17,904 nt of DNA, taken from assembly GCA_946479475.1 (NCBI GenBank), contig CAMLGG010000092.1, positions 1-17,904 of the forward strand, given 5' to 3'. Origin of the DNA: an uncultured Ideonella sp. (GTDB lineage Bacteria; Pseudomonadota; Gammaproteobacteria; Burkholderiales; Burkholderiaceae). The notes under the pieces are model-generated. The model was not told where the DNA came from and did not search any database. It was given only the letters and a program-made list of their open reading frames with translations. This document shows positions 1,398-13,200 of this stretch, piece by piece. The position numbers and the translations under genes were made by a program. The stretch's first letter is position 1. Each line of letters begins with the position of its first letter.

Positions 1398-3014
1398 ATG
1401 AGCCTACCCAATCTTTCCGACACCGGGACCCGAACCGAAGGTGTGGTGCTGGCTGTCTATGCCCCCTTTGGTTCCGACGAAGTGCTGAGCAGTTTCCCCG
1501 ACAACCTCACGACTTCGGTGCAGGCCCATCCGCTGGTCGCTGCGCTGAAAGGGGTGGCCCAGGCGGGTGTCCACGTCGTGGCCCTGATCGACCGGGTGGA
1601 AGACAACTCCTGGCTGGTCGACATCCCGGCAGGGCAGCCCGAAGCGATCCAGATCGTCTCCCGATGGAAGCATGACTTCTCCTCGGAGCGCACGCTGGCC
1701 GGCCTGATCGCCCAGGCGCACGAGCGCTGCCCGCGGGCGGCCCTGGTCCTCGCCCTGGAGGGCCACGGCGCGGGGTACCTGCCTGACGTGAACCGGCGTA
1801 ACCTGACCTGGAGCCGGGCGACCGAGACGGGGAAGTTCGAGTGGCACTTCTCGGACAAGGACTGCGCACCCGTGCATTCGGATGGCAGCCCGGTGTTGCC
1901 CGGCGGCTTCCCGGGATTGCCCGGTGGCTTTCCCGGCCTGCCCGCCAACAGCACCTACCTGTCCACATGGCAGCTGGGCGAAGCCCTCCGAATGGCCCGC
2001 GACCTGGGCGCTCCTCGCGCCGGGGTGATCCACTTCAACAACTGCTTCAACCTGTCGGTCGAGGTGCTGCATACCGTGGCGCCGTACGGCGTCTGCGCCG
2101 CCGGCTACAGCAACTACAACTTCTTCACCTCCGGCGCAGCGTACCCGGCGGTCTTCCAGCGACTGCAGCAGGCTGGCACGGCGACGTGCCAGCAATTGGC
2201 CGCCTGGTTCGCCGAGGAGAACCACAAGGCGCTGACCGCCAAGCCGCGCCATCCCACGGTGGGCGGAGTGGTCGAGCTTTCGCGCATGGCCGGCATTGCC
2301 GACGGCGTGGACCGCCTGTCCGATGCCTTGCTCAAGGCCTTGCAGGGCGCCGCGCCCGGTGATCGACCCCTTCTGGTCGGCCTGATCCGCCAGGCCATCC
2401 TGGACGCCCAGCAATACGACTCCGAGCCCGGCTGGGACCTGGAGGCGCCCGACCAGCTCACCGACCTGCGCAGCCTGGCCGCGATGCTGCAAAAGCAGGC
2501 CGCGGGCTACCCGGCCATCCAGAACGAGGCCGCCGGGCTCGTCAAGCTGTTGGACGGGATCAAGGCCTATGGCGACGACGACGTGCCTTGGATGGACGAG
2601 ACGAACATCATCCGCTGGGATTTCCGCTCGCCCCTGCTCGCGATGAACATCTTCCTGCCGGATCCGCTGCGCGACGGCGTCTGGGATTGGCGCTCGACCT
2701 ACTACGTCGACGTGAACCCGGACCAGAAGGCGCCGCTGCAGCGGGGAGTGATCGACTTCCTCAAGGACACCACCTGGGTCGACTTCCTCGTCGAGTACCA
2801 CAAGGACGTGCCCTTCAAGTCCTTCCACGTCGGCTCCATCCCGCGCCTGCCGGGCTTCAATCCGCGGGCCGAGCCGGTGCCGCCGGAGGGCAAGCCGCCG
2901 GGCGGTGGGGAGGACGGTGGCGACCGTTGCGGCCGGCCGCGCCAGCCCTGGCCGCTGGGCGCGATCGCGCGCCGGCTGCTCGCCTGGCTGGAGCGGCACG
3001 GGGAGCGCACCTGA
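1398..3014 (+). CDS. Clostripain-like (peptidase C11) cysteine peptidase
   Basis: The 538-residue protein has no signal peptide or membrane span, so it is probably cytoplasmic. The start is fixed by GAGGAGAA upstream of the ATG. The N-terminus reads as a clostripain-type caspase fold: strand VVLAVYAPFG, strand VHVVALIDRVEDNSW (58-72), strand ALVLALEGHGAG (115-126) supplying the likely catalytic His123, and VIHFNNCFNLSVEVLH (210-225) supplying the likely catalytic Cys216. Family C11 members cleave after basic residues and often self-process; whether this one does is not visible. Between His and Cys lies an unusual tandem LPGGFPG repeat (167-180). Residues 300-480 are a helical region followed by an aromatic-rich C-terminal domain. 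The last 40 residues are Gly/Pro-rich and then a cationic amphipathic helix. Downstream is a strong hairpin; upstream is a divergent HTH/TPR-like gene. A broader caspase-clan relative is the main alternative. Confidence 0.72.
   Translation: MSLPNLSDTGTRTEGVVLAVYAPFGSDEVLSSFPDNLTTSVQAHPLVAALKGVAQAGVHVVALIDRVEDNSWLVDIPAGQPEAIQIVSRWKHDFSSERTLAGLIAQAHERCPRAALVLALEGHGAGYLPDVNRRNLTWSRATETGKFEWHFSDKDCAPVHSDGSPVLPGGFPGLPGGFPGLPANSTYLSTWQLGEALRMARDLGAPRAGVIHFNNCFNLSVEVLHTVAPYGVCAAGYSNYNFFTSGAAYPAVFQRLQQAGTATCQQLAAWFAEENHKALTAKPRHPTVGGVVELSRMAGIADGVDRLSDALLKALQGAAPGDRPLLVGLIRQAILDAQQYDSEPGWDLEAPDQLTDLRSLAAMLQKQAAGYPAIQNEAAGLVKLLDGIKAYGDDDVPWMDETNIIRWDFRSPLLAMNIFLPDPLRDGVWDWRSTYYVDVNPDQKAPLQRGVIDFLKDTTWVDFLVEYHKDVPFKSFHVGSIPRLPGFNPRAEPVPPEGKPPGGGEDGGDRCGRPRQPWPLGAIARRLLAWLERHGERT
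1896..1937 (+). repeat. Two tandem 21-bp units encoding LPGGFPG inside the peptidase gene
   Basis: Units at 1896-1916 and 1917-1937 encode identical LPGGFPG heptapeptides, followed by a partial LP. The four base differences between the units (unit positions 9, 15, 18 and 21) are all at third codon positions and silent. The repeat lies in the loop between the putative catalytic His and Cys. Confidence 0.85.
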
Positions 3015-3865: not shown

Positions 3866-5095
3866 ATGCCCGTCAATCTCGCCGCCCCCGATCCGACTTC
3901 CCTCGCGCCCGTCGCCGGGGTGAGCCTGGGCATCGCCGAAGCCGGCATCCGCAAGGCCAATCGCAAGGACCTGGTCGTCGTGGAGCTGGCCGAGGGCGCG
4001 GCCGTCGCCGGCGTCTTCACCAGCAACCGCTTCTGCGCCGCGCCGGTGCAGGTCTGCCGCGAGCACCTGGCCGGCGGCCAAGGCATCCGCGCCATCCTCG
4101 TCAACACCGGCAATGCGAACGCCGGCACCGGCGCCGACGGCTTGGCCCGCGCCCGCCGCAGCTGCGCCGCGCTCGCCTCGCACCTGGGCATCGCGCCCGA
4201 GCAGGTGCTGCCTTTTTCCACCGGCGTGATCATGGAGACGCTGCCGGTCGACCGCATCGAGGCGGGCCTGGCCGCCGCGCTGGCCGATCGTTCGCCGGCG
4301 AACTGGGCCCGGGCCGCTGAAGGCATCATGACGACGGACACGCTGCCCAAGGCCGCCTCGCGCACCTTGACGATCGGCGGGCGCGAGGTCCACGTGACCG
4401 GCATCTCCAAGGGCGCCGGCATGATCCGGCCCAACATGGCGACCATGCTCGGCTTCGTCGCCACCGATGCCGTGGTCGAAGCCGGCCTGCTGCCGGGGCT
4501 GGTGAAGGCCGCGGCGGACGAGTCCTTCAACCGCATCACCATCGACGGCGACACCTCGACCAACGACTCCTTCGTGCTGATCGCGACGAACCAGGCCGGC
4601 CACCCGCCCATCACTTCGCTCTCGAGCCCCGAGGGCCAGGCGCTGCAGGCGGCCGTTTTCGAGGTGGCCCGCGAGCTGGCCCAGGCGATCGTGCGCGACG
4701 GCGAGGGCGCGACCAAGTTCATCACCGTCCGCGTCGAAGGCGGTCGCAACGAAGCCGAGTGCCAGCAGGTGGCCTACGCCATCGCCCACTCGCCGCTCGT
4801 CAAGACGGCCTTTTTCGCGAGCGACCCGAATCTCGGCCGCATCCTCGCAGCCGTGGGCTATGCCGGCATCACGGACCTGGACCAGTCGCTCATCGACCTG
4901 TACCTCGACGACGTGCACGTCGCGCGAGAAGGCGGCCGCCATCCCGCCTACCGCGAGGAGGACGGCCAGCGCGTGATGAAGCAGCCCGAGATCACGGTGC
5001 GGGTGGACCTGCACCGCGGCAGCGCGAGCGCGACGGTGTGGACCTGCGACCTCTCGCACGACTACGTCAGCATCAACGCCGACTACCGGTCCTGA
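3866..5095 (+). CDS. argJ: Bifunctional glutamate N-acetyltransferase / amino-acid acetyltransferase ArgJ
   Basis: ArgJ moves the acetyl group from N-acetylornithine to glutamate, recycling it in cyclic arginine biosynthesis; the bifunctional forms also use acetyl-CoA. The 409-residue length is typical for the family. The precursor cleaves itself into alpha and beta chains before a conserved Thr. Here the motif [16 protein letters not shown] (182-197) places that nucleophile at Thr193, with cleavage after Ala192. Other family signatures are [11 protein letters not shown] (51-61), NTGNANAGTG (80-89), the oxyanion-hole region STGVIME (118-124), and [10 protein letters not shown] in the beta chain. 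The ending [10 protein letters not shown] matches the family. It is cytoplasmic. A 118-base spacer separates it from the preceding small gene and 84 bases from the importer operon, so it probably has its own promoter. Whether it accepts acetyl-CoA cannot be read from the sequence. Confidence 0.97.
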
Positions 5096-5179: not shown

Positions 5180-6007
5180 ATGAAGAAGAGCATCCGATTG
5201 CTGGCCGCGGCGTTCGTGGCGGCCCTCGCGCCCCTGGCCGCTCACGCCGACCAGGTCGCCGACGTCAAGGCCAAGGGCGAGCTCGTCTGCGGCGTGCTGG
5301 GCACCGACGACCCCTTCAGCTTCGTCGACCCGAAGTCGCGCGAGATCGTCGGCTACGAGGTCGACCTGTGCAACGCGATCGCCAAGAAGCTGGGCGTGAA
5401 GACCTCGCTCAAGCAGCTCGCCGTGGCTGCCCGCGTGCCCGAGCTCCAGCAGGGGCGGGTCGACATCCTCGCCGCCTCGCTCACGCACAACAAGGAGCGG
5501 GAGGCCCTGATCGACTTCTCGCTGTCGACCTTCATCACCGGCCAGAAGGTCATGACCAAGAAGGCCAGCGGCATCACCGAGCCCTCGCAGCTGGCCGGCA
5601 AGAAGGTGCTCACCGTCAAGGGCTCCACGATGGAGCAGAACATCAAGAAGGCCGTGCCCGCAGCCGAGATCGTCTCCTTCGACAACAGCCCGCAGGCCTT
5701 CCTCGCGCTGCAGCAGGGCAAGGGCGTGGCGTACGTGAACGACGAGACTTCGCTGATCGACGATTTCAGCAAGCTCGGCCCGGCGCAGAAAGACTACGTG
5801 ATCCTGCCCGCCAGCATCAGCACCGAGCACCTCGCGCTCGGCCTGAAGAAGGGCGAGGCCGGCATGAAGACGCTGGTCGATGGCGTGCTGCGCGACATGG
5901 AGAAGTCAGGCGAGGCCGACAAGCTCTTCGCCAAGTGGTTCGGCCCGCAGACCAAGATGAAGTTCCCGTCGCGGCCCTTCAAGTACGAGACCGACAAGAT
6001 CGATTGA
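5180..6007 (+). CDS. Polar amino acid ABC transporter, periplasmic substrate-binding protein (GltI-like)
   Basis: This 275-residue family 3 solute-binding protein captures an amino acid in the periplasm and delivers it to the permease pair encoded next. A Sec signal peptide is clear: MKKSIR, a hydrophobic stretch, and AHA at 21-23 with likely cleavage before Asp24. Lobe motifs include DDPFSF (43-48), GYEVDLCNAIAKKLG (58-72), VPELQQGRVDILAASLT and REALIDFS. The C-terminal MEKSGEADKLFAKWFGPQTKMKF resembles the end of glutamate/aspartate binding proteins such as E. coli GltI. Cys37 and Cys64 could form a disulfide. Ligand by similarity is glutamate/aspartate or a related polar amino acid; the sequence does not settle it. 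The gene is first in a four-gene operon, and its ribosome site lies in a small hairpin. Confidence 0.93.
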   Translation: MKKSIRLLAAAFVAALAPLAAHADQVADVKAKGELVCGVLGTDDPFSFVDPKSREIVGYEVDLCNAIAKKLGVKTSLKQLAVAARVPELQQGRVDILAASLTHNKEREALIDFSLSTFITGQKVMTKKASGITEPSQLAGKKVLTVKGSTMEQNIKKAVPAAEIVSFDNSPQAFLALQQGKGVAYVNDETSLIDDFSKLGPAQKDYVILPASISTEHLALGLKKGEAGMKTLVDGVLRDMEKSGEADKLFAKWFGPQTKMKFPSRPFKYETDKID

Positions 6008-6019
6008 CGCCGCCGCGGC

Positions 6020-6718
6020 ATGGCGGATTTCGACCTGGCCCTGCTGACCACGGGGCCCTACCACGCGCAGCTGGTCGCGGGCTTCTGGCTCTCGCTCAAG
6101 CTCGCGGCCGGCACGCTGGTGCTGGCGCTGCCCCTGGCGCTGGTGGTCGCGGTGCTGCGCCTGACGCCTTCGCGCCTGCTGTCGGGCCTGGGCTTCGGCT
6201 TCGTCGAGGCGATCCGCAACGTGCCGCTGCTGGCGCACATCCTGTTCTGGTACTTCGGCGCGCCCGAGCTGCTGCCGGAGGGCCTCAAGCAGTGGCTGTA
6301 CCAAGGGAACATCGAGGTCGCGGCCGCGGTGATCGCCCTCACGCTCTACACCGCGGCCTACATGTCCGAGGACATCCGCAGCGGCGTGCGCAGCGTGCCG
6401 CGCGAGCAGCTCGAGGCGGCGCGCGCGCTGGGCTTCGGGTTCTTCGCCAGCATGCGGCTGGTCGTGCTGCCGCAGGCCTTGCGCATCACCGTGCCGCCAC
6501 TCATCTCGCAGACGCTGAGCCTGTGGAAGAACACCAGCATGGCGATGGTGGTGGGCGTGGCCGAGCTGCTCTACCAGGCGCAGCAGGTCGAGAGCGCGAC
6601 CTTCCGCAGCTTCGAGTCCTTCGCCTTCGCGACGGTCTCCTACCTGCTCGTGTCGCTGTTGATCACGGGCCTCGCGGTGTCCTACGAGCACCGCGTGCAC
6701 GGTGCACGTCACCACTGA
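6020..6718 (+). CDS. Amino acid ABC transporter permease (GltJ-like)
   Basis: This 232-residue inner-membrane permease of the HisM/GltJ type forms one half of the translocation channel. It has about five hydrophobic spans (roughly 20-45, 60-80, 95-120, 150-175 and 200-222). The EAA loop that contacts the ATPase is visible as REQLEAARALGFGFFASMRLVVLPQAL, and the family motif EAIRNVPLLAHILFWYF precedes it. The gene starts 12 bases after the binding-protein stop. The next permease gene begins immediately after its TGA. The paired, non-identical permeases suggest a heterodimeric channel. Confidence 0.93.
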   Translation: MADFDLALLTTGPYHAQLVAGFWLSLKLAAGTLVLALPLALVVAVLRLTPSRLLSGLGFGFVEAIRNVPLLAHILFWYFGAPELLPEGLKQWLYQGNIEVAAAVIALTLYTAAYMSEDIRSGVRSVPREQLEAARALGFGFFASMRLVVLPQALRITVPPLISQTLSLWKNTSMAMVVGVAELLYQAQQVESATFRSFESFAFATVSYLLVSLLITGLAVSYEHRVHGARHH

Positions 6719-6719
6719 C

Positions 6720-7442
6720 ATGGCAGAGCTGATCCAGGACTACTGGCTCTACTTCCTGGTCGGCCAGTACCCCAACGGCCCGCTGGGCGGCCTGGCCCTG
6801 ACGCTGGTGCTCGCGTCGCTCGGCTTGCTGCTCGCCTTCCCCATCGGCCTCGCCCTGGCCCTCGCGCGCGTGAGCCCGATCCGCGCGCTGCGCTGGCCGG
6901 CGATGGGCCTGATCTACGTGGTGCGCGGCACGCCGCTGCTGATGGTGGTGTTCTGGGCCTACTTCCTGATCCCGAGCCTCACCGGCGTCAAGACCAGCCA
7001 GTTCGCCACGATGCTGGCGGCGCTGGTCGTCTTCGACGGCGCCTACCTCGCGGAGATCATGCGCGCCGGCATCCAGGGCTTGCCCAAGGGCCAGATGGAA
7101 AGCGCGCGCTCCTGCGGCCTGAGCTGGCTGCAGGCCATGCGGCTGGTGATCCTGCCGCAGGCGCTGCGCAACATGCTGCCCTCGCTCATCAACCAGTTCG
7201 TCTCGACGATCAAGGAGACCTCGCTGGGCTACGTGGTGAGCCTGGCCGAGGTGTCCTTCATCGCCTCGCAGATCAGCGCGCAGGTGCTGACCCGCCCCGC
7301 CGAGATCTACGGCGTGCTGGCGCTGACCTACTTCATCCTGTGCTTCGGGCTTTCGCGCTGGGCCTTCTGGCTCGAGCGCCGGCTCGCGCGCCGCCGCACG
7401 ACCGTGCCGGCGGCCGAACAACCTCCGGTGCCCGCCGCATGA
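6720..7442 (+). CDS. Amino acid ABC transporter permease (GltK-like)
   Basis: This is the second inner-membrane permease, 240 residues from the ATG at 6720, one base after the upstream stop. A GTG at 6702 would add six residues and overlap the previous gene; neither start has a clear ribosome site, and ATG is preferred because translational coupling fits. The EAA loop reads [28 protein letters not shown]. The family motif [22 protein letters not shown] lies before it and [16 protein letters not shown] after it. The C-terminus is a short basic cytoplasmic tail ([10 protein letters not shown]). The stop overlaps the ATPase start as ATGA. Confidence 0.93.
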
Positions 7443-8188
7443 TCGAGCTGCAGTCCGTCAACAAGTGGTTCGGCGATTACCACGCCCTGGTCGAAGTGAG
7501 CGGCGCCGTCGCGAAGGGGCAGGTGGTCGTGGTGTGCGGGCCCTCGGGCTCCGGCAAGTCGACGCTGATCCGCACGCTGAACCGGCTGGAGCTCATCCAG
7601 TCGGGGCGCATCACGATCGATGGGCAGGACATCCACGCTCCGGGCCTCGACATCAACGAGTTCCGCTCGCACATCGGCTTCGTCTTCCAGCAGTTCAACC
7701 TGTTCCCGCACCTGTCGGCGCTGGGCAACTGCACCCTCGCGCCGATCCAGCTTCGACGCGTGAAGCCGGCCGAGGCGCGCGAGCGCGCGATGGCCCTGCT
7801 GGAGCGCGTGGGCCTGGCCCACAAGGCGAACGCCATGCCGCACGAGCTTTCGGGCGGCCAGCAGCAGCGGGTGGCGATCGCGCGGGCGCTGGCGATGCAG
7901 CCGCCGCTGATGCTTTTCGACGAGCCCACGAGCGCGCTCGATCCGGAGATGGTGGGCGAGGTGCTGCTGGTGATGCGCGACCTGGCGCGCGACGGCATGA
8001 CCATGGTCTGCGTCACGCACGAGATGGGCTTTGCGCGGGAGGTTGCCGACCGCGTCTGGTTCATGGACGCAGGCCAGGTGCTCGAGCAGGCCGAGCCGGC
8101 CGAGTTCTTCAACCGCCCGCAGCATCCGCGGGCGAAGAAGTTCCTGTCGGACATCCGCTCCCCGTTCGAACAGGGCGAGCGCGGCTGA
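7439..8188 (+). CDS. Amino acid ABC transporter ATP-binding protein (GltL/ArtP-like)
   Basis: This 249-residue cytoplasmic ATPase drives the importer. All nucleotide-binding motifs are present: Walker [10 protein letters not shown] (34-42), Q-loop [10 protein letters not shown] (82-91), signature ELSGGQQQR (136-144), Walker B LMLFDEP (157-163), D-loop SALD, and the switch His194 in [16 protein letters not shown] and [14 protein letters not shown] are typical of the polar amino acid importer subfamily. The ATG at 7439 overlaps the permease stop (ATGA); an open frame upstream has no coding support. The stop at 8186-8188 abuts the stop of the convergent bactofilin gene. Confidence 0.95.
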
Positions 8189-8201
8189 CTACTCGCTCGC
8201 C
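8174..8201. terminator. Shared hairpin over two abutting stop codons (candidate bidirectional terminator)
   Basis: GGCGAGCG (8174-8181) pairs perfectly with CGCTCGCC (8194-8201). The 12-base loop contains both the TGA of the ATPase gene (8186-8188) and the stop of the convergent bactofilin gene (8189-8191). No T-tract follows on either strand, so terminator function is inferred from position only. Confidence 0.45.
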
Positions 8202-8605
8202 GGGACGTCCATGTCGCCGCGGAACTCGATCTTGCCGCGCAGGCGGGCGCGGGGGTGGATGTCGATCAGGGCGTCGTAGAGCGCGTCGCCGAGCAGGGTG
8301 GCCGAGCCGGTGAGCTCCAGCGTCTTGCGGGCGATCACCGTGCCGCGCACCTTGCCTTCGATCAGCACATGGTCGGCCTCGATGGTCGTGCCCTCGACGA
8401 CGCCTGTGGCGCCGACGTGCACCGTGCCGCCTGTCTCGAGCCGGACGTCGCCCTTGAGCCAGCCGTCGACCTTGAGGCCCAGGTCGACCTTGGCGCTGAA
8501 CGTTCCCTCGAACTGCGCGCCTTCGGCGACCAGGCTGGAGATGTTGTTCAGCTGCTCGGCCGGCACCAGGCGGGCCGGTGCGCGGTGGTTGTCAGAGCCG
8601 TTCAC
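8189..8605 (-). CDS. Bactofilin family protein (third of three)
   Basis: Bactofilins are small beta-helix proteins that self-assemble into filaments near the membrane and position envelope enzymes. This 138-residue protein has a short tail (1-22) followed by the repeating pattern of short strands with Gly turns typical of DUF583: VAEGAQFEGTFSAKVDLGLKVDGWLKG (split over 26-52), GTVHVGATGVVEGTTIEADH, IEGKVRGTVIARKTLEL, and GSATLLGDALYDALIDIHPRARLRG. The start is a GTG at 8605 with GAGGAG upstream, one base after the stop of the membrane gene before it, so translation is probably coupled. It is the last gene of the five-gene cluster. Confidence 0.85.
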   Translation of the reverse strand: MNGSDNHRAPARLVPAEQLNNISSLVAEGAQFEGTFSAKVDLGLKVDGWLKGDVRLETGGTVHVGATGVVEGTTIEADHVLIEGKVRGTVIARKTLELTGSATLLGDALYDALIDIHPRARLRGKIEFRGDMDVPASE

Positions 8606-8606
8606 G

Positions 8607-8951
8607 TCAGGGTTCTCCTCGCGGGGTGGGGCCAGGGGCGGAGGGCGATTTTGCCTGAGTGCCCGCGGCAGAAGCGGCCCCGTTCACCAATGTTTGCAGC
8701 CGAGCGGGCAGCGGGTGTTCTCGCCACCACAGGGCCCAGCCCAGCTCGGCCAGGATCAGCAGCGGCAGCGTCCAGATCGTCAGCTTGTACAGGCCGAAGG
8801 CGAACCAGCGCATGCGCACGCGCCTGCGAGCGACGCTGGTGTTGCGCTGGGCGGAGCGGGCCAGCGCGGCGCGGCGCAGCTCGTCACTGGTGGCGACGGC
8901 GCGGGTCGGCTGCGGCGGCGTGCCTTCCTCAGCGGACGGGTCGGCCGGCAT
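8607..8951 (-). CDS. Small single-span membrane protein in the bactofilin cluster
   Basis: The protein has 114 residues: a Pro/Glu/Thr-rich N-terminus (1-22), a basic helix (about 24-47, with RRAALARSAQ and ARRRVRMR), a single hydrophobic span at about 49-77 rich in Trp, and a Pro/Ala/Ser-rich tail (78-114). The positive charges before the span suggest the N-terminus is cytoplasmic. No family is recognised. Its start overlaps the end of the preceding bactofilin gene by 23 bases and its stop is one base before the next bactofilin start, so it is firmly embedded in the operon. A membrane anchor or adaptor for bactofilin filaments is an inference from this placement. Confidence 0.72.
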   Translation of the reverse strand: MPADPSAEEGTPPQPTRAVATSDELRRAALARSAQRNTSVARRRVRMRWFAFGLYKLTIWTLPLLILAELGWALWWREHPLPARLQTLVNGAASAAGTQAKSPSAPGPTPRGEP

Positions 8952-9465
8952 CGCCTTCCGGGCGCACGCGCTCCAGCTGGGCGTTCAGGTCGGCGCCGTT
9001 GACCTGCAGGTGGGTGTAGCGGATGCGGCCCGAGACACTGGCCGTGTCGTGCAGCGAGACCCGACCGCCGGCGGCATCCAGCGTGCCGACGGCCTGGCCG
9101 AGCACCGAGATGTTGCGGGCGCGGATGTCGCCCACCACGGTGCCCGTCTCGGTGATCGTGACGTGGCCGCTGCCCGCGCCCTGAAGCTCGACGTCGCCCT
9201 GCACCTCGCCGGCGATGGTCAGCGAGCCCTCGATGCGGGCACTGCCGACGAAGGACAGGCCCTCGCCGAGGGTGGACACGCGCGCCGCGGTGTCCGCCGC
9301 CGGCGTCACGGCCTGCATGCGGGGCAGCAGGGTGGGGATGCGGTCGACCTCCGGCATCGGCTGGCCCATCGGCACGTGGACCTGGACCTCCGGCGCGGTG
9401 CTCTCGCCGGTCGCTTCGTTCGGTACGCCTTCGTCAGGCACGCGGGATTCGTCGTCGTTGGCCAT
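8929..9465 (-). CDS. Bactofilin family protein with long N-terminal tail (second of three)
   Basis: The protein has 178 residues. Residues 1-60 are acidic and Pro-rich and probably disordered (MANDDESRVPDEGVPNE at the start). Residues about 64-165 carry the bactofilin beta-helix pattern: LGEGLSFVGSARIEGSLTI, AGEVQGDVELQG, VTITETGTVVGDIRARNISV, LGQAVGTLDA and SGRIRYTHLQV. Bactofilins usually have such a core flanked by flexible tails, the N-terminal one often contacting the membrane. The GTL/GDI/GRI spacing marks the successive turns. The gene follows the first bactofilin after 30 bases and overlaps the downstream membrane gene by 23 bases. Confidence 0.88.
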   Translation of the reverse strand: MANDDESRVPDEGVPNEATGESTAPEVQVHVPMGQPMPEVDRIPTLLPRMQAVTPAADTAARVSTLGEGLSFVGSARIEGSLTIAGEVQGDVELQGAGSGHVTITETGTVVGDIRARNISVLGQAVGTLDAAGGRVSLHDTASVSGRIRYTHLQVNGADLNAQLERVRPEGDAGRPVR

Positions 9466-9495
9466 GGTGGAGCGGCAGGCGCGGAAGAGGGGGCG

Positions 9496-9930
9496 TCAGT
9501 CACCGTGCAGGATGGGCAGCGACTGGCCATGGCGCAGGGTGCGAAACGGACCCTGCAGGACCGCCCCATCATACATGCGCAGTTTGGTGGCGATGAGCGT
9601 GCCGGTGCTGACGCCGGTGCTGGCCACGTAGGCCGTGCCCTGGCACTCGATCTCGGTGCCTTCGTCGACGTCGTCCTCGGTCTCGGTGGCTTCGCCGAGC
9701 TGGCCCAGCAGGTACAGGTCGCCCAGGATGCGAAAGCGCCCGATCAGCCGGGCGTCGTGCCAGACGACGAGGCGCCCGGCGATCTCGCCGACGCCCTGCA
9801 GCGTGCCCTGCAGCAGCAGGCCGCCCTTGAAGAGGAAGTCGCCCGCCAGCACCGTGTCGGCCGCGATGCGGTTGACGATGTTCATCTTCACCGGGTCGAT
9901 GACCAGCGTGTCCTGGGTCTTGTCGAGCAA
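9496..9930 (-). CDS. Bactofilin-like protein with an acidic internal insertion (first of three)
   Basis: The protein has 144 residues with beta-helix-like repeats: ADTVLAGDFLFKGGLLLQGTL (24-44, split here), VGEIAGRLVVWHDARLIGRFRILGDLYLLG (47-76), and after residue 93 YVASTGVSTGTLIATKLRM and LQGPF. An acidic segment at 80-93 (EATETEDDVDEGTE) interrupts the repeat, which is unusual for this fold. The best start is a TTG at 9930, with GAGGG eight bases upstream. The same frame is closed by the stop of the preceding gene at 9966-9964, and no ATG or GTG lies between. The match to the family is weaker than for its two neighbours, so it could be a diverged paralogue. Confidence 0.72.
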   Translation of the reverse strand: MLDKTQDTLVIDPVKMNIVNRIAADTVLAGDFLFKGGLLLQGTLQGVGEIAGRLVVWHDARLIGRFRILGDLYLLGQLGEATETEDDVDEGTEIECQGTAYVASTGVSTGTLIATKLRMYDGAVLQGPFRTLRHGQSLPILHGD

Positions 9931-9963
9931 TCGTCGGCCCTCGGTTGAAGTACTCGGCGGCGG

Positions 9964-10296
9964 TCAGCGCGCGAAGCGCTCGAAGATCCACCACAACAGC
10001 GCGCTCCACAGCGCCAGGATGCCCGCCAGGCCCAGCACCATGAGCCTGCGGCGGGCGCGGGCCAGGGCGTACGTGGACACCGGACGGCCCATGCCCGCAT
10101 CGCCCTGCAGGGGCGAGACGAGGCCGCGCGCGGCGTGGCCCAGCAGCTCGGCCTGGGCCTCGAGCAGGTGCAATTTCAGGCCGCGCGCCGGCTCCCGGCG
10201 GATGCCGGTGCTGGGGCCCATTTCCACGACGACAGGCTCGCCCACCACCTGCTCGGTGAAGTAGCGATCGATCGCCTCGCGGTCCTGGCCCTCCAT
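9964..10296 (-). CDS. Small membrane protein opening the bactofilin cluster
   Basis: The protein has 110 residues: a soluble N-terminal part (1-75), a basic stretch ARARRR (79-84), and one hydrophobic span at about 85-105 ending in IFERFAR at the C-terminus. It has no signal peptide and appears tail-anchored with the bulk in the cytoplasm. No family is recognised. It is the first gene of the five-gene cluster, 33 bases before the TTG-start bactofilin gene. Its architecture (soluble, basic patch, single Trp-containing span) parallels the second membrane protein of the cluster at 8607-8951, suggesting the two do related jobs, perhaps tethering filaments. Confidence 0.68.
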   Translation of the reverse strand: MEGQDREAIDRYFTEQVVGEPVVVEMGPSTGIRREPARGLKLHLLEAQAELLGHAARGLVSPLQGDAGMGRPVSTYALARARRRLMVLGLAGILALWSALLWWIFERFAR

Positions 10297-10352
10297 GGCC
10301 GTGAATTATGGGTGATGGCGTGGGCCTCCCTACCTTGCACGACGCAGGCGGC

Positions 10353-10382
10353 TTGCCTCGCCGGAGGCGCCGCTGCTAGGAT
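10353..10382 (+). promoter_or_regulatory. Possible sigma-70 promoter for the MFS exporter
   Basis: TTGCCT (10353-10358) and TAGGAT (10377-10382) are separated by 18 bases and point toward the exporter gene. The spacing and the -10 box are acceptable; the match is not strong enough to be certain. Confidence 0.35.
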
Positions 10383-10422
10383 GCGCCCTCGCATTCGCGT
10401 TGCCCAACCAGCCCCCTTTCCG

Positions 10423-10512
10423 ATGAAGCCCTCCCTCGCCATCAACCGACGCTGCTGCGGTCACCGACCGGCAGTCGCGTTCGTCGTCATGGCGGGAGAG
10501 ATCCCGCACTAG
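10423..10512 (+). CDS. Possible short leader ORF, 29 residues
   Basis: ATG at 10423 to TAG at 10510-10512, reading MKPSLAINRRCCGHRPAVAF followed by VVMAGEIPH. It lies about 35 bases after the predicted transcription start and 161 bases before the exporter ATG. An in-frame ATG at 10381 would add 14 codons but overlaps the predicted -10 box. No good ribosome site is visible. The GAGA-tetraloop hairpin covers its last codons. It could be a regulatory leader peptide or simply chance. Confidence 0.22.
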   Translation: MKPSLAINRRCCGHRPAVAFVVMAGEIPH

Positions 10513-10673
10513 CGGCACCTCGGCCTTCCGCCCAGTCGTACGGGCGTTCCGCCGGGCCCCCTCGGCGGAAGAATCGGATTCACCGGCCCCTCCTTCTTTC
10601 GCTGTTTTTGCTCTCGCGGGCCTTGCCTTACCCAGGCGAGGCGCCCGCCGTGGCCGAGAAAGTCGAGCGACCC

Positions 10674-11990
10674 ATGAGGTCCTGGATCCAGGAACTGAGA
10701 AACCGCTTCAGGCTCGCGCCGCAGGACCTGCTGCGCGACGCGGTGTACCGCCGCCTGTGGACGTCCATCCTGATCAGCTCGCTGGGCGGCCAGGTGACGA
10801 TGCTGGCGCTGCCGCTCACGGCAGCCGTGCTGCTGCAGGCCACGCCGACGCAGATGGGCCGGCTGACGGCGATGGAGATCGCGCCGTTCATCCTGTTCTC
10901 GCTGCCCGGCGGCGTCTGGCTGGACCGGGTGCGCAAGCTGCCGGTGTATGTGGCGGGCGAGACGCTGCTGGCGTTCACCGTTGCCAGCGTGCCGCTGGCC
11001 TGGTGGCTGGGCTGGCTGGCGATGCCGTGGCTGTACGCCGTGGCCTTCACGATCGGCACGGTCTACACCGTGGCCGGCTCGGCCGCGCAGGTGGTGCTGA
11101 CGCAGGTCGTGCCGCGAGAAAGGCTGGTAGAGGCGCATGCCAAGAACTCGCTGGCCAGCTCCGGTGCCGAAGTGGCCGGGCCGGGTGTCGCGGGCGCGCT
11201 GATCCGCCTGCTCGGCGCGCCGGTGGCGCTGCTGGTGGATGCGGTGGGCCTGGTGAGTTCGGCGCTGATCCTGCGCGGCATCCACGTCGTCGAGCAGCGC
11301 GAGCCGCAGAGCGGCGCCTCCGCGTTCTGGGCCGATCTGGTCGCCGGGCTGCGCTTCGTCGTCCGTCAGCGGCTGCTGGTCGCACTGGCGGTGTGCGTGG
11401 GCACCTTGCAGATGTGCCACCACGCCGCGCTGGTGGTGCAGATCCTGTTCGCCACGCGAGTGCTCGGCATGGGCGAGCAGGCCGTCGGCCTGAGCTATGT
11501 GGGGCTCGGGATCGGCACCGTGGCGGCAAGCCTGCTGGGAGACCGCATCAGCCGCCGCGTCGGCCCGGGACCGTGCCTGGTGATGGGCTTCGCGATCAGT
11601 GGCAGCGGTTGGGCGCTGTTGTCGGTGGCTCCGGTCGGCGCGCTGGGCGTGGCAGCCTTCGTGGCGATGCTGTGCCTGTTCGGGCTGGGCGCGGTGCTGG
11701 TCTTCATCAACTTCCTGGCCCTGCGCCAGGCGGTGACGCCAGCGCCGATGCTGGGCCGGATGACGAGCACGATGCGCTGGCTGACCCTGCTGCCGGCCGG
11801 CCCCGGGGCACTGCTGGGCGGCTGGCTGGGTGACCACGTCGGGCTGCGGGCAGCGCTGGCCTTCTCGGGTGTGACGGCGATGCTGCTTTCGCTGTTCGCC
11901 TGGCGCTGGGCGACGATCCGCGGGGTGCGCAGCCTGCCGCAGCAGCCGCGCGCCGTGGGGACCGAGGCCCTGGCCGAGGCGACCCTCTGA
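10674..11990 (+). CDS. MFS transporter, EntS-like exporter family
   Basis: From the ATG at 10674 the protein has 438 residues and about 11-12 hydrophobic spans, typical of the major facilitator superfamily. It resembles the enterobactin-exporter/macrolide-efflux branch (MFS_3). The N-terminal SILISSLGGQVTMLALPLTA and the loop 2-3 motif GVWLDRVRK (80-88) are characteristic, as is the conserved VVPRERLVEAHAKNSLASS segment with GPGVAGALI after it. It should use the proton gradient to expel a small molecule; the substrate is unknown. The frame extends upstream to a TTG at 10608 and a GTG at 10650, but the extra 22 residues look unlike the family, which starts shortly before the first span. A long structured leader lies upstream, and it converges on the GloVer gene. 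Confidence 0.88.
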   Translation: MRSWIQELRNRFRLAPQDLLRDAVYRRLWTSILISSLGGQVTMLALPLTAAVLLQATPTQMGRLTAMEIAPFILFSLPGGVWLDRVRKLPVYVAGETLLAFTVASVPLAWWLGWLAMPWLYAVAFTIGTVYTVAGSAAQVVLTQVVPRERLVEAHAKNSLASSGAEVAGPGVAGALIRLLGAPVALLVDAVGLVSSALILRGIHVVEQREPQSGASAFWADLVAGLRFVVRQRLLVALAVCVGTLQMCHHAALVVQILFATRVLGMGEQAVGLSYVGLGIGTVAASLLGDRISRRVGPGPCLVMGFAISGSGWALLSVAPVGALGVAAFVAMLCLFGLGAVLVFINFLALRQAVTPAPMLGRMTSTMRWLTLLPAGPGALLGGWLGDHVGLRAALAFSGVTAMLLSLFAWRWATIRGVRSLPQQPRAVGTEALAEATL

Positions 11991-13200
11991 GTCCCGCGGG
12001 CCGGTGCAGCCGGCCCCCGGGGGCTCCCGCCCGGCGCAGGCGCGAAAGCACGCCCGCGCCCCCCCCGCCCCCCCCCGGGGTGGGGCCGGAGAGCCCGCCC
12101 ACCCCCCCCCAGCCCCCCGCGCCCACCGGCGTCGCCCCGCCCGCGCCGGTGCCGTCGAAGCGGTGGAGCAGGCTCACCTTGCCCTTGCGCGTCATTCGGA
12201 AGACGGTGCCGTAGCTCTGGGGCGCGTCCCCGCCCTCGACCGTCGTGCCGTACAGCGCGCCGTCCGAGCCCTCGACCAGCGCGCAGCGCGGGTAGGCGCC
12301 GTCGTTGTCGCCCCCGGCGAAGTGGTGCAGGGCGGTGAACTTGCCGTTTGCAGTGACGCGATAGGCCACGCCGCGGCCGAAGGCGCCGCCGCCCGAGGTC
12401 ACGCCATAGAGATGGCCGTCGCTGCCCAGCACCAGCGACCCGCCGGGGCCGCTGCCGTCGAAGGCCTGGCCGAGCACCTTCACGACCTCGAAGCCGCTGC
12501 CATCGGTGTTCAACCGGAAGATGGTGCCCTTGTTGGCGCCGCCGCCGAAGGGGTTGGTGCCCCAGAGCTTTCCGTCGGGCCCGAAGACCAGGGCCGACTC
12601 GCAGCCGCTGCCGTCGCCGCCCGCGAATCGATGCAGTTCCTTGACCTTGCCGTTGTTCGCATTGAAGCGGTAGACCGAGTCACGCGTCGTCCCGTAGAAG
12701 ATGCCGGGCTTGCCTTCGACGAGCGCCCCCTGGGGCGAGAAAAGGTTGCCGTCCCCGGTGAACTCGCAGCGCATGGCCACCGCTTCAGCGCTGTCGACCG
12801 TGAAGATCGTGCCCCGGAAGGCCTCGCCGCCGAAGGAACTGGTGCCCCACAGCAGACCGTCCTGGCCCATGACCAGGCCGGATTCGGGTGCAGAGGGGCC
12901 GCTGTCGCTGTAGGCGAAGTTCTGCAGCACGGCGAAGCTGCCGTCGCCGGGCGACCAGCGGTAGAGCGTGCCCAGCCCCTGCTCGCCTCCTGCTGCATGC
13001 AGCCCGTAGAGCATGCCGTTGCTGCCGAAGGTCGGGCTGCCGACGGCGCGGGAGCCTTCCTCCCAGGTGAAGCCATGCAGGGCCTCGAACGTCCAGCCGG
13101 CGCTGTTCGCCGAGGCGGTGCGGGGGAGGGCGAGGGCGGCCGTCGCGCCGGCCAGGCCTAGCAGCGCCTGGCGGCGGGAAAGGGAATGCGGAGCGTGCAC
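11707..13200 (-). CDS. Tat-exported GloVer-repeat protein with degraded 3' end
   Basis: The GTG at 13200 has AGGAGG five bases upstream. Residues 1-32 are a twin-arginine signal: SRRQALLG, a hydrophobic Ala/Leu stretch, then ASAN. The mature part is a tandem array of roughly 50-60-residue repeats of the type found in choice-of-anchor GloVer proteins: GTLYRW (77-82), GTIFTV (130-135), SVYRF (175-179), GTIFRL (225-230), GVAYRV (277-282), GTVFRM (331-336). Each follows an LYGTT/LWGT-like motif. A beta-propeller-like secreted protein of unknown function is likely. The last repeat (361-388, 12120-12037) is degraded to Gly runs. From about 12035 the frame continues to 11707 antisense to the MFS gene with no coding character. 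The natural stop was probably near 12000-12035, so the 497-codon frame overstates the protein. Confidence 0.75.
   Translation of the reverse strand: MHAPHSLSRRQALLGLAGATAALALPRTASANSAGWTFEALHGFTWEEGSRAVGSPTFGSNGMLYGLHAAGGEQGLGTLYRWSPGDGSFAVLQNFAYSDSGPSAPESGLVMGQDGLLWGTSSFGGEAFRGTIFTVDSAEAVAMRCEFTGDGNLFSPQGALVEGKPGIFYGTTRDSVYRFNANNGKVKELHRFAGGDGSGCESALVFGPDGKLWGTNPFGGGANKGTIFRLNTDGSGFEVVKVLGQAFDGSGPGGSLVLGSDGHLYGVTSGGGAFGRGVAYRVTANGKFTALHHFAGGDNDGAYPRCALVEGSDGALYGTTVEGGDAPQSYGTVFRMTRKGKVSLLHRFDGTGAGGATPVGAGGWGGVGGLSGPTPGGGGGGAGVLSRLRRAGAPGGRLHRPAGLRGSPRPGPRSPRRAAAAAGCAPRGSSPSARRTAKAASPSHPRRPALPAARRGHPASRPAVPRGRPAAGSASASCSSSGPASALASPPGAGPGS
11998..12016. terminator. Hairpin after the MFS gene (candidate terminator)
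   Basis: GGGCCGG (11998-12004) pairs with CCGGCCC (12010-12016) around TGCAG, eight bases after the MFS stop and close to the expected natural end of the convergent GloVer gene. No T-tract follows, so the function is inferred from position. Confidence 0.4.

Follow-up and report, generated by a model that had tools for sequence, protein, structure and literature searches.

A conserved cassette of three bactofilins and two single-span membrane proteins in Ideonella, Hydrogenophaga and related bacteria

This analysis concerns a cluster of five open reading frames (ORFs) in a 17,904-nucleotide (nt) stretch of DNA from an uncultured Ideonella sp. (contig CAMLGG010000092.1 of assembly GCA_946479475.1), referred to here, at its full length, as the window. 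The cluster, termed the cassette, occupies window positions 8189-10296, with all five ORFs on the minus strand in the order MP1, BacA, BacB, MP2, BacC:

9964..10296, minus strand: MP1, 110 amino acids (aa), single span; candidate membrane tether of BacA
9496..9930, minus strand: BacA, 144 aa, TTG start; divergent bactofilin (PF04519, E 1e-7)
8929..9465, minus strand: BacB, 178 aa; bactofilin (PF04519, E 9.7e-18)
8607..8951, minus strand: MP2, 114 aa, single span; candidate tether of BacB/BacC
8189..8605, minus strand: BacC, 138 aa, GTG start; bactofilin (PF04519, E 6.2e-18)

An earlier reading of the DNA, the original prediction, had described three distinct bactofilins and two small single-span proteins, and both descriptions were borne out. 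All three of BacA, BacB and BacC exceed the Pfam PF04519 cut-off of 27.9 bits (32.6, 64.7 and 65.3 bits, respectively), are hardly alignable with one another by BLASTP (BacA/BacB E 0.088, BacA/BacC 8e-4, BacB/BacC 1e-6), and fall into separate tree groups, as described below; one span was found by hydropathy in most MP1 and MP2 sequences, neither of which matched a Pfam or NCBIfam family above cut-off. The proposed overlapping operon stands as regards its tightness, with one strand and short spacing (33 nt for MP1/BacA, 30 nt for BacA/BacB and 1 nt for MP2/BacC), but BacB and MP2 are the sole overlapping pair, by 23 nt. Promoter and terminator scans of positions 8000-10700 gave no signal above shuffles. 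Pfam and NCBIfam searches found no peptidase or other wall enzyme among the five genes, so the predicted lack of a peptidase holds for the cassette itself; a protein of the clostripain family (Peptidase_C11) is encoded about 5 kb away at 1398-3014.

The TTG start of bacA at window position 9930 recurs in the listed ORF of the relative at locus L001, and such a rare start may set the dose of BacA. A Shine-Dalgarno-like AGGAGAA lies in the last MP2 codons (window 8605-8630), just before the bacC GTG. A conserved KEP at the MP2 C-terminus was considered as a protein motif and dropped, as it coincides with this sequence; the C-terminal KEP or GEP of many MP2 relatives may be the same bacC Shine-Dalgarno-like signal.

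Conservation of the gene order

A protein-database search at E 1e-3 returned 28 homologues of MP1, 17 of MP2 and 130 of BacA (the best 120 of the 130 being listed), with sources that include Ideonella, Vitreoscilla metagenome-assembled genomes (MAGs), Burkholderiales and one MAG named Pseudomonadota. The MP1 and MP2 locus tags of Ideonella sp. DXS29W, and likewise those of a Vitreoscilla MAG, are 15 apart, which at the customary increment of five amounts to three genes, as in the window, and two reference contigs (L001, L002) carry the same five-gene order between a major facilitator superfamily (MFS) transporter gene and argJ. With MP1 as bait, two loci were found in a contig scan and eight among 399 family genomes (six clear; G284 and G060 marginal). 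The rarity that this would suggest was rejected, because MP1 diverges fast and is a misleading bait: with a BacA profile at E 1e-12, 20 genomes in an even sample of 399 from the GTDB family gave a match. At the level of the order, a profile from a broader BacA alignment matched two of 399 genomes at E 1e-10, namely G001 and G116, neither of them new; G116 is Hydrogenophaga sp. PBL-H3, judged by its identical plasmid. Within genera, BacA is present in 15 of 16 genomes of the Ideonella-type genus (that of G382), in three of four of the genus of G033, and in 52 of 67 Hydrogenophaga (the genus of G343), where 50 have a strong match (at least 197 bits) and two a weaker paralogue only.

Eighty-three loci were read, comprising 76 orthologous loci, one per genome (the window, L001, L002, L040-L058 and L069-L122), and seven paralogous loci (L059, L123-L128). 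The full order MP1-BacA-BacB-MP2-BacC on one strand is kept at 58 of the 76 orthologous loci (the BacC call of L112 is weak, at 130 bits), and no other gene order was seen at any of the 76. MP1 and BacA alone are found at 14, or 11 once L071, L109 and L122, which end at a contig edge, are set aside. The remaining exceptions are L043 without MP2, L070 without MP1, L058 with BacA alone, and L121, whose contig ends after BacB; six-frame searches for MP1 in L070 and L058 and for MP2 in L043 gave nothing above 10 bits. At least three different neighbourhoods hold the cassette: MFS/argJ, FemAB-like/ppa, and a third in L045 and L046. Median pairwise ratios of nonsynonymous to synonymous substitution (dN/dS), computed with our own script from pairs having dS 0.2-1.5 and at least 70% identity, were 0.21 for MP1, 0.17 for BacA, 0.19 for BacB, 0.31 for MP2 and 0.12 for BacC (n = 45, 522, 139, 14 and 796), with 0.79 as the largest value, and MP1 and MP2 are therefore real genes.

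It had been stated at the outset that a gene order confined to this strain would speak against the cluster being a system; instead, with the full order at 58 loci in several genera, the five genes are passed on together as a fixed cassette in a number of related bacterial groups. One might still suppose that these are tandem duplicates kept together by descent, the two small membrane proteins having nothing to do with filaments, and the use of one site per genus does mean that the conservation is in part no more than synteny. We regard this account as very improbable, given that the order persists at different sites across genera, that BacB, MP2 and BacC are missing together in two separate clades, and that the MP1 motif accompanies BacA relatives even on plasmids.

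The Hydrogenophaga site shows how the cassette is divided. It is bordered by a FemAB-like gene (PF04339) on one side in 48 of 50 loci and by ppa on the other in 46 of 50 (ppa being recognised by its likeness to a single ORF that was assigned by eye). The 50 strong-BacA loci comprise 36 with all five genes, 11 with the MP1-BacA pair and three cut by a contig end. In all 11 pair loci the ppa start lies 25-125 nt past the BacA domain, between the same neighbours, and by the tree the pair state must have arisen at least twice. Among the 17 Hydrogenophaga without strong BacA, 11 hold the FemAB-like gene, directly followed by ppa in 10, and those 11 stretches (2.7-4.2 kb) contain no cassette gene at E 0.001. 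With whole genomes of the same genus lacking the cassette, the module is accessory.

Orthologues of the other three genes were sought in 30 genomes with an incomplete cassette or none (11 with the pair, 17 without strong BacA, G324 and G791), and none was found. For BacC, 29 of the 30 gave matches of at most 75 bits, apart from 101 bits (G116 plasmid) and 104 bits (G845:C22), on a scale where orthologues score 124-246 bits and canonical bactofilins 47-52. For BacB the best were 84, 73 and 71 bits (G116:C2, G857:C282 and G845:C22), the others at most 51, against 160-223 bits in three control genomes; for MP2 there were two 22-bit matches, against 29, 106 and 121 bits in three controls. Since MP1-BacA occurs by itself, and orthologues of the other three genes did not turn up without BacA in those genomes, the pair looks like the core of the cassette and the orthologous BacB-MP2-BacC like an add-on.

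The bactofilins and their candidate anchors

In a 54-sequence tree BacA, BacB and BacC each form one group (support 100/98, 87/74 and 98/95); the BacB support is modest and the paralogue rows are long-branched. Judged from these sequences, the three are old and separate subfamilies, each with its own conserved motifs: an N-terminal DTLxIDPxxMNxxNR in BacA; LGxAMP (N-terminal) and QVNGADLNAxLERV (C-terminal) in the BacB alignment; and ARLVPxExLxxISSLIAEGA (N-terminal) and HPRARxRGKxEYRG (C-terminal) in the BacC alignment. The AlphaFold2 model of BacA is beta-rich (predicted local distance difference test, pLDDT, 89.5), with residues 75-92 free of strand. When this model was compared with the PDB by Foldseek, the Thermus bactofilin filament 6rib_A ranked second by E value (0.022; probability 0.99; template modelling score 0.64 by target), a protease ranked first with probability 0.85, and nothing reached E 0.001. 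A beta-helix fold is thus predicted for BacA by its model, and for BacB and BacC by sequence matches only.

In Thermus and Caulobacter bactofilins the C-terminal polymerisation residue is Phe. In the cassette proteins the site assigned to this role is never Phe: it is Leu, Val or Met in 68 of 77 BacA (those read by pattern), Leu in 58 of 61 BacB, and Val, Leu or Ile in 58 of 59 BacC, the position being taken from the alignment for BacA and by eye for BacB and BacC. The absence of Phe was considered as a sign of obligate hetero-polymers and dropped, since Ile occupies the site in the canonical bactofilin that L003 and L004 carry (by eye).

What the cassette bactofilins lack is a membrane-targeting sequence (MTS). 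No MTS-like N-terminus can be reached from any in-frame start in 78 BacA or in 60 BacC (at least 120 bits), and among 61 BacB only two reach one, via alternative starts. An ordinary bactofilin (87-99 bits) is co-resident in 18 of 19 genomes (not in G382) and in G001 and G002; that of L003 and L004 starts MWFKF[RK]K in both sequences read, which fits a targeting peptide. At L004 564-1866 the ordinary bactofilin gene follows a DUF6776 protein gene, downstream of an rpsI-like gene, possibly another bactofilin-partner pair.

MP1 has an N-terminal YFTEQVVG, predicted to be cytoplasmic, a basic RARRR and a C-terminal Trp-rich span. Its motif [TSC]xx[IV][IV]G is present in all 78 MP1 calls, and with the two preceding residues in 77 of 78 as against four of 15,600 shuffles. 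AlphaFold2 gives MP1 a helix at 75-109, with pLDDT above 90 as a block in residues 81-110. In MP2 the columns over 59 sequences give a predicted cytoplasmic motif before the span, ExLRxxAL..S..R...V.RRR..RW, and a tail follows. One hydropathy segment (mean at least 1.6) was found at 70 of 76 MP1 loci (two segments at one) and at 47 of 59 MP2 loci. Positive charge is greater before than after the best segment in all 76 MP1 and in 58 of 59 MP2, by which the N-terminal side of both is predicted to lie inside. The original prediction had given the two proteins a parallel design, which fits the span and its basic side but not the C-terminal ends, where MP1 has a median of 6 aa after the span and MP2 a tail of 81. 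No enzyme domain was found in either protein.

Flanking genes and plasmid relatives

The cassette of the window lies among backbone genes, the principal ones being:

10608..11990, plus strand: MFS transporter (PF07690), divergent from the cassette; backbone gene
3866..5095, plus strand: argJ (PF01960), which adjoins the cassette in L001 and L002
5180-6007: solute-binding gene (PF00497) of an ATP-binding cassette (ABC) transporter operon, whose remaining genes were assigned by eye

The MFS flank recurs in L001, L002, L040-L042, L044 and others. Whereas argJ adjoins the cassette directly in L001 and L002, here the two are separated by an amino-acid ABC transporter operon (window 5180-8188), whose last gene converges on bacC with zero bases between their stops. 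No M23 peptidase is adjacent to the cassette in the window, the flanks being the MFS gene and the ABC transporter/argJ side. Further off, the minus strand of window 11707-13200 encodes a protein with a start resembling a twin-arginine translocation (Tat) or other signal, repeats, and a weak beta-propeller lyase match; its C-terminal third is compositionally odd and may be frameshifted.

These neighbours bear on a second explanation, in which the scaffold places peptidoglycan enzymes and so curves the cell or sets up zones of local growth. A role in cell shape has been described for several bactofilins, and in 48 of 50 Hydrogenophaga loci the cassette has the FemAB-like gene (455 bits) upstream of it, in the same orientation. 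That gene, however, is backbone, with ppa directly after it in 10 of the 11 loci without strong BacA, the neighbours differ in other genera, and the cassette is without a wall enzyme. A functional link to the FemAB-like gene or to argJ/MFS was accordingly dropped, these being backbone neighbours that differ between genera. A cell-wall or shape device is possible, and we hold it to be on the doubtful side. For the stalk, sheath or curvature device envisaged by the original prediction nothing was found that points there; the identified neighbours are backbone genes.

The paralogous loci have a different setting. L123 (3364-6120) and L124 (3632-6554) carry MP1-, BacA-, BacB- and BacC-like genes followed by a ParB-like gene (in L124, HTH_ParB E 3.4e-7), and no MP2 was detected in either. 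Upstream in L124 is a protein with a weak, below-cut-off resemblance to an integrating-element protein. L059 and L125-L128 have a relative of the PRTRC ParB nearby, L059 being the Hydrogenophaga plasmid NZ_CP044976. On this conjugative plasmid (L137 9313-10756), and on that of Polaromonas, NC_007949 (L139 7062-8408), the gene immediately before the BacA relative encodes a longer protein with an MP1-like N-terminus, and those after it encode TraB and PRTRC ParB. MP1 profile scores are 38.7 bits for L125, 17.5 for L128, 11.4 for NZ_CP044976 and 6.0 for NC_007949; since the N-terminal part alone is common to MP1 and the plasmid proteins, its reading as an adaptor peptide fits. BacA relatives of the plasmid type occur in five of 72,556 plasmid records, two of which are the same plasmid; a search of the plasmids with the window BacA as query gave no match. 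The BacB-like and BacC-like genes of G116:C2 (L138 7285-8425) also sit on a Hydrogenophaga plasmid.

A third explanation builds on these loci: a scaffold like that of BacNOP and PadC in Myxococcus xanthus would organise a ParABS or plasmid segregation complex, which the chromosomal cassette would tether to the membrane. In M. xanthus the bacNOP genes are followed by the ParB-like padC (PMC5703909). With four ParB-type queries at E 1e-3 (PadC itself not among them), a ParB-type gene was matched in the fetched stretch of all seven paralogous loci, directly downstream in L123 and L124, and the BacA relatives of the Hydrogenophaga and Polaromonas plasmids lie just ahead of TraB and the PRTRC ParB gene. 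The same queries, however, matched none of the 76 orthologous loci, some of which have short flanks; and the seven paralogous loci are related plasmid-type backbones rather than independent cases, in which the bactofilin may have been co-opted. DNA positioning is on this evidence an unlikely role for the cassette.

Comparison with known systems and proposed function

The original prediction had described bactofilins as generally solitary, paired or adjacent to a peptidase, which overlooks the M. xanthus bacN-bacO-bacP operon, comprising three bactofilin genes and two further ORFs, whose products co-assemble (PMC5703909). This is the closest precedent, the cassette likewise having three bactofilins in one putative operon. 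In the same source BacP carries the adaptor site; the adaptor PadC is ParB-like, not bitopic, and that description of BacNOP includes no MP1 or MP2 (PMC5703909). The likeness is one of gene content, and the four ParB-type queries matched none of the 76 orthologous loci.

For the membrane proteins the nearest parallels are bitopic partners of other bactofilins. The first 13 residues of Caulobacter PbpC bind BacA (dissociation constant 4.9 uM), and the PbpC anchor, when overproduced, can replace the BacA MTS; like MP1 and MP2, PbpC combines a short conserved cytoplasmic peptide with a basic stretch before the span, although PbpC is a cell-wall synthase and the Caulobacter BacA has its own targeting peptide (PMC12448750). 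LmdC binds bactofilin by a cytoplasmic N-terminal region, and in Hyphomonas and Rhodospirillum the bactofilin gene overlaps or adjoins that of this bitopic partner; LmdC, however, is an M23 endopeptidase, of which the cassette has none (PMC10945521). MP1 and MP2 look like such PbpC/LmdC-type bactofilin-binding tails minus the enzyme. Among the BacA, BacB and BacC of Rhodomicrobium vannielii, bactofilins interact and one needs another for localisation, but the portion of that study at hand describes no dedicated membrane proteins, and one of its bactofilins has a cadherin-like domain (PMC10259793). In Helicobacter pylori a non-enzymatic transmembrane protein, Csd5, belongs to the CcmA bactofilin shape complex (PMC9507126). 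That complex differs in working with peptidoglycan enzymes, and its partners are likened to MP1 and MP2 by description. A second transmembrane partner in it, Csd7, has reportedly been found. A five-gene cassette of the present kind was not found described among the listed titles and opening lines of abstracts in the open-licence bactofilin literature.

The reading that we favour, at a probability of about 0.6, is that of a hetero-bactofilin scaffold which dedicated bitopic proteins, rather than an N-terminal targeting peptide, tether to the inner membrane. MP1 would tether BacA to the membrane and MP2 likewise BacB and/or BacC; the three bactofilins would form joint assemblies or stacks founded on BacA, and most likely the scaffold would mark or position a cargo on the cytoplasmic side of the membrane, which might be cell-wall machinery, a pole or a region of the chromosome. 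This is the best reading because the gene order is kept, the bactofilins belong to three subfamilies and lack an MTS, and bitopic proteins are nearly always present, and to that extent the hetero-filament with dedicated anchors of the original prediction is sustained. The role of MP1 and MP2 as dedicated anchors is suggested by the short cytoplasmic tails with which bitopic proteins elsewhere bind bactofilin; hetero-assembly we infer from co-inheritance and from the analogy with BacNOP.

Several observations weigh against the anchored scaffold. Co-inheritance alone is no proof of contact, and L043, L070 and L058 do without one or both anchors. No segment above the usual hydropathy threshold is present in five of 76 MP1 and 12 of 59 MP2, and outside its span the MP1 model is of low confidence (mean pLDDT 67.5). 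The BacA starts MLDKTQD (window) and MFDKTLD (L001) partly resemble a targeting peptide, with a hydrophobic residue 2 and Lys at 4, but they have Asp at 3 and 7. In three contigs (G116:C2, G845:C22 and G857:C282) a BacB-like gene adjoins a BacC-like one with no BacA beside them, and the whole of G857 gave no BacA match. These weaker pairs score 71-84 bits (BacB-like) and 74-104 bits (BacC-like) and were treated as paralogues, the three BacA-free contigs indicating that BacB-BacC relatives can stand alone. Lastly, the MP1-motif link on PRTRC-type plasmids is weak, with scores of 6 to 39 bits.

A more speculative extension, which we put forward as improbable at present, would be a two-tier, membrane-tethered hetero-bactofilin platform with the short tails of MP1 (for BacA) and MP2 (for BacB/BacC) as interchangeable adaptors. 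Conjugative plasmids would have acquired the same pair of adaptor and BacA, and would use it to fix ParB/TraB partition or transfer complexes to the envelope, as a DNA anchoring system built on a bactofilin. The use of the same parts by conjugative plasmids, beside ParB and TraB genes, is in any event a lead.

In summary, the cassette looks like an unstudied internal scaffold, and it bears on how bactofilins reach the membrane and on whether different bactofilins form mixed filaments. It supplies two short candidate bactofilin-binding motifs, and its natural variants of five, two and zero genes at one chromosomal site in one genus make the roles of core and add-on separable.

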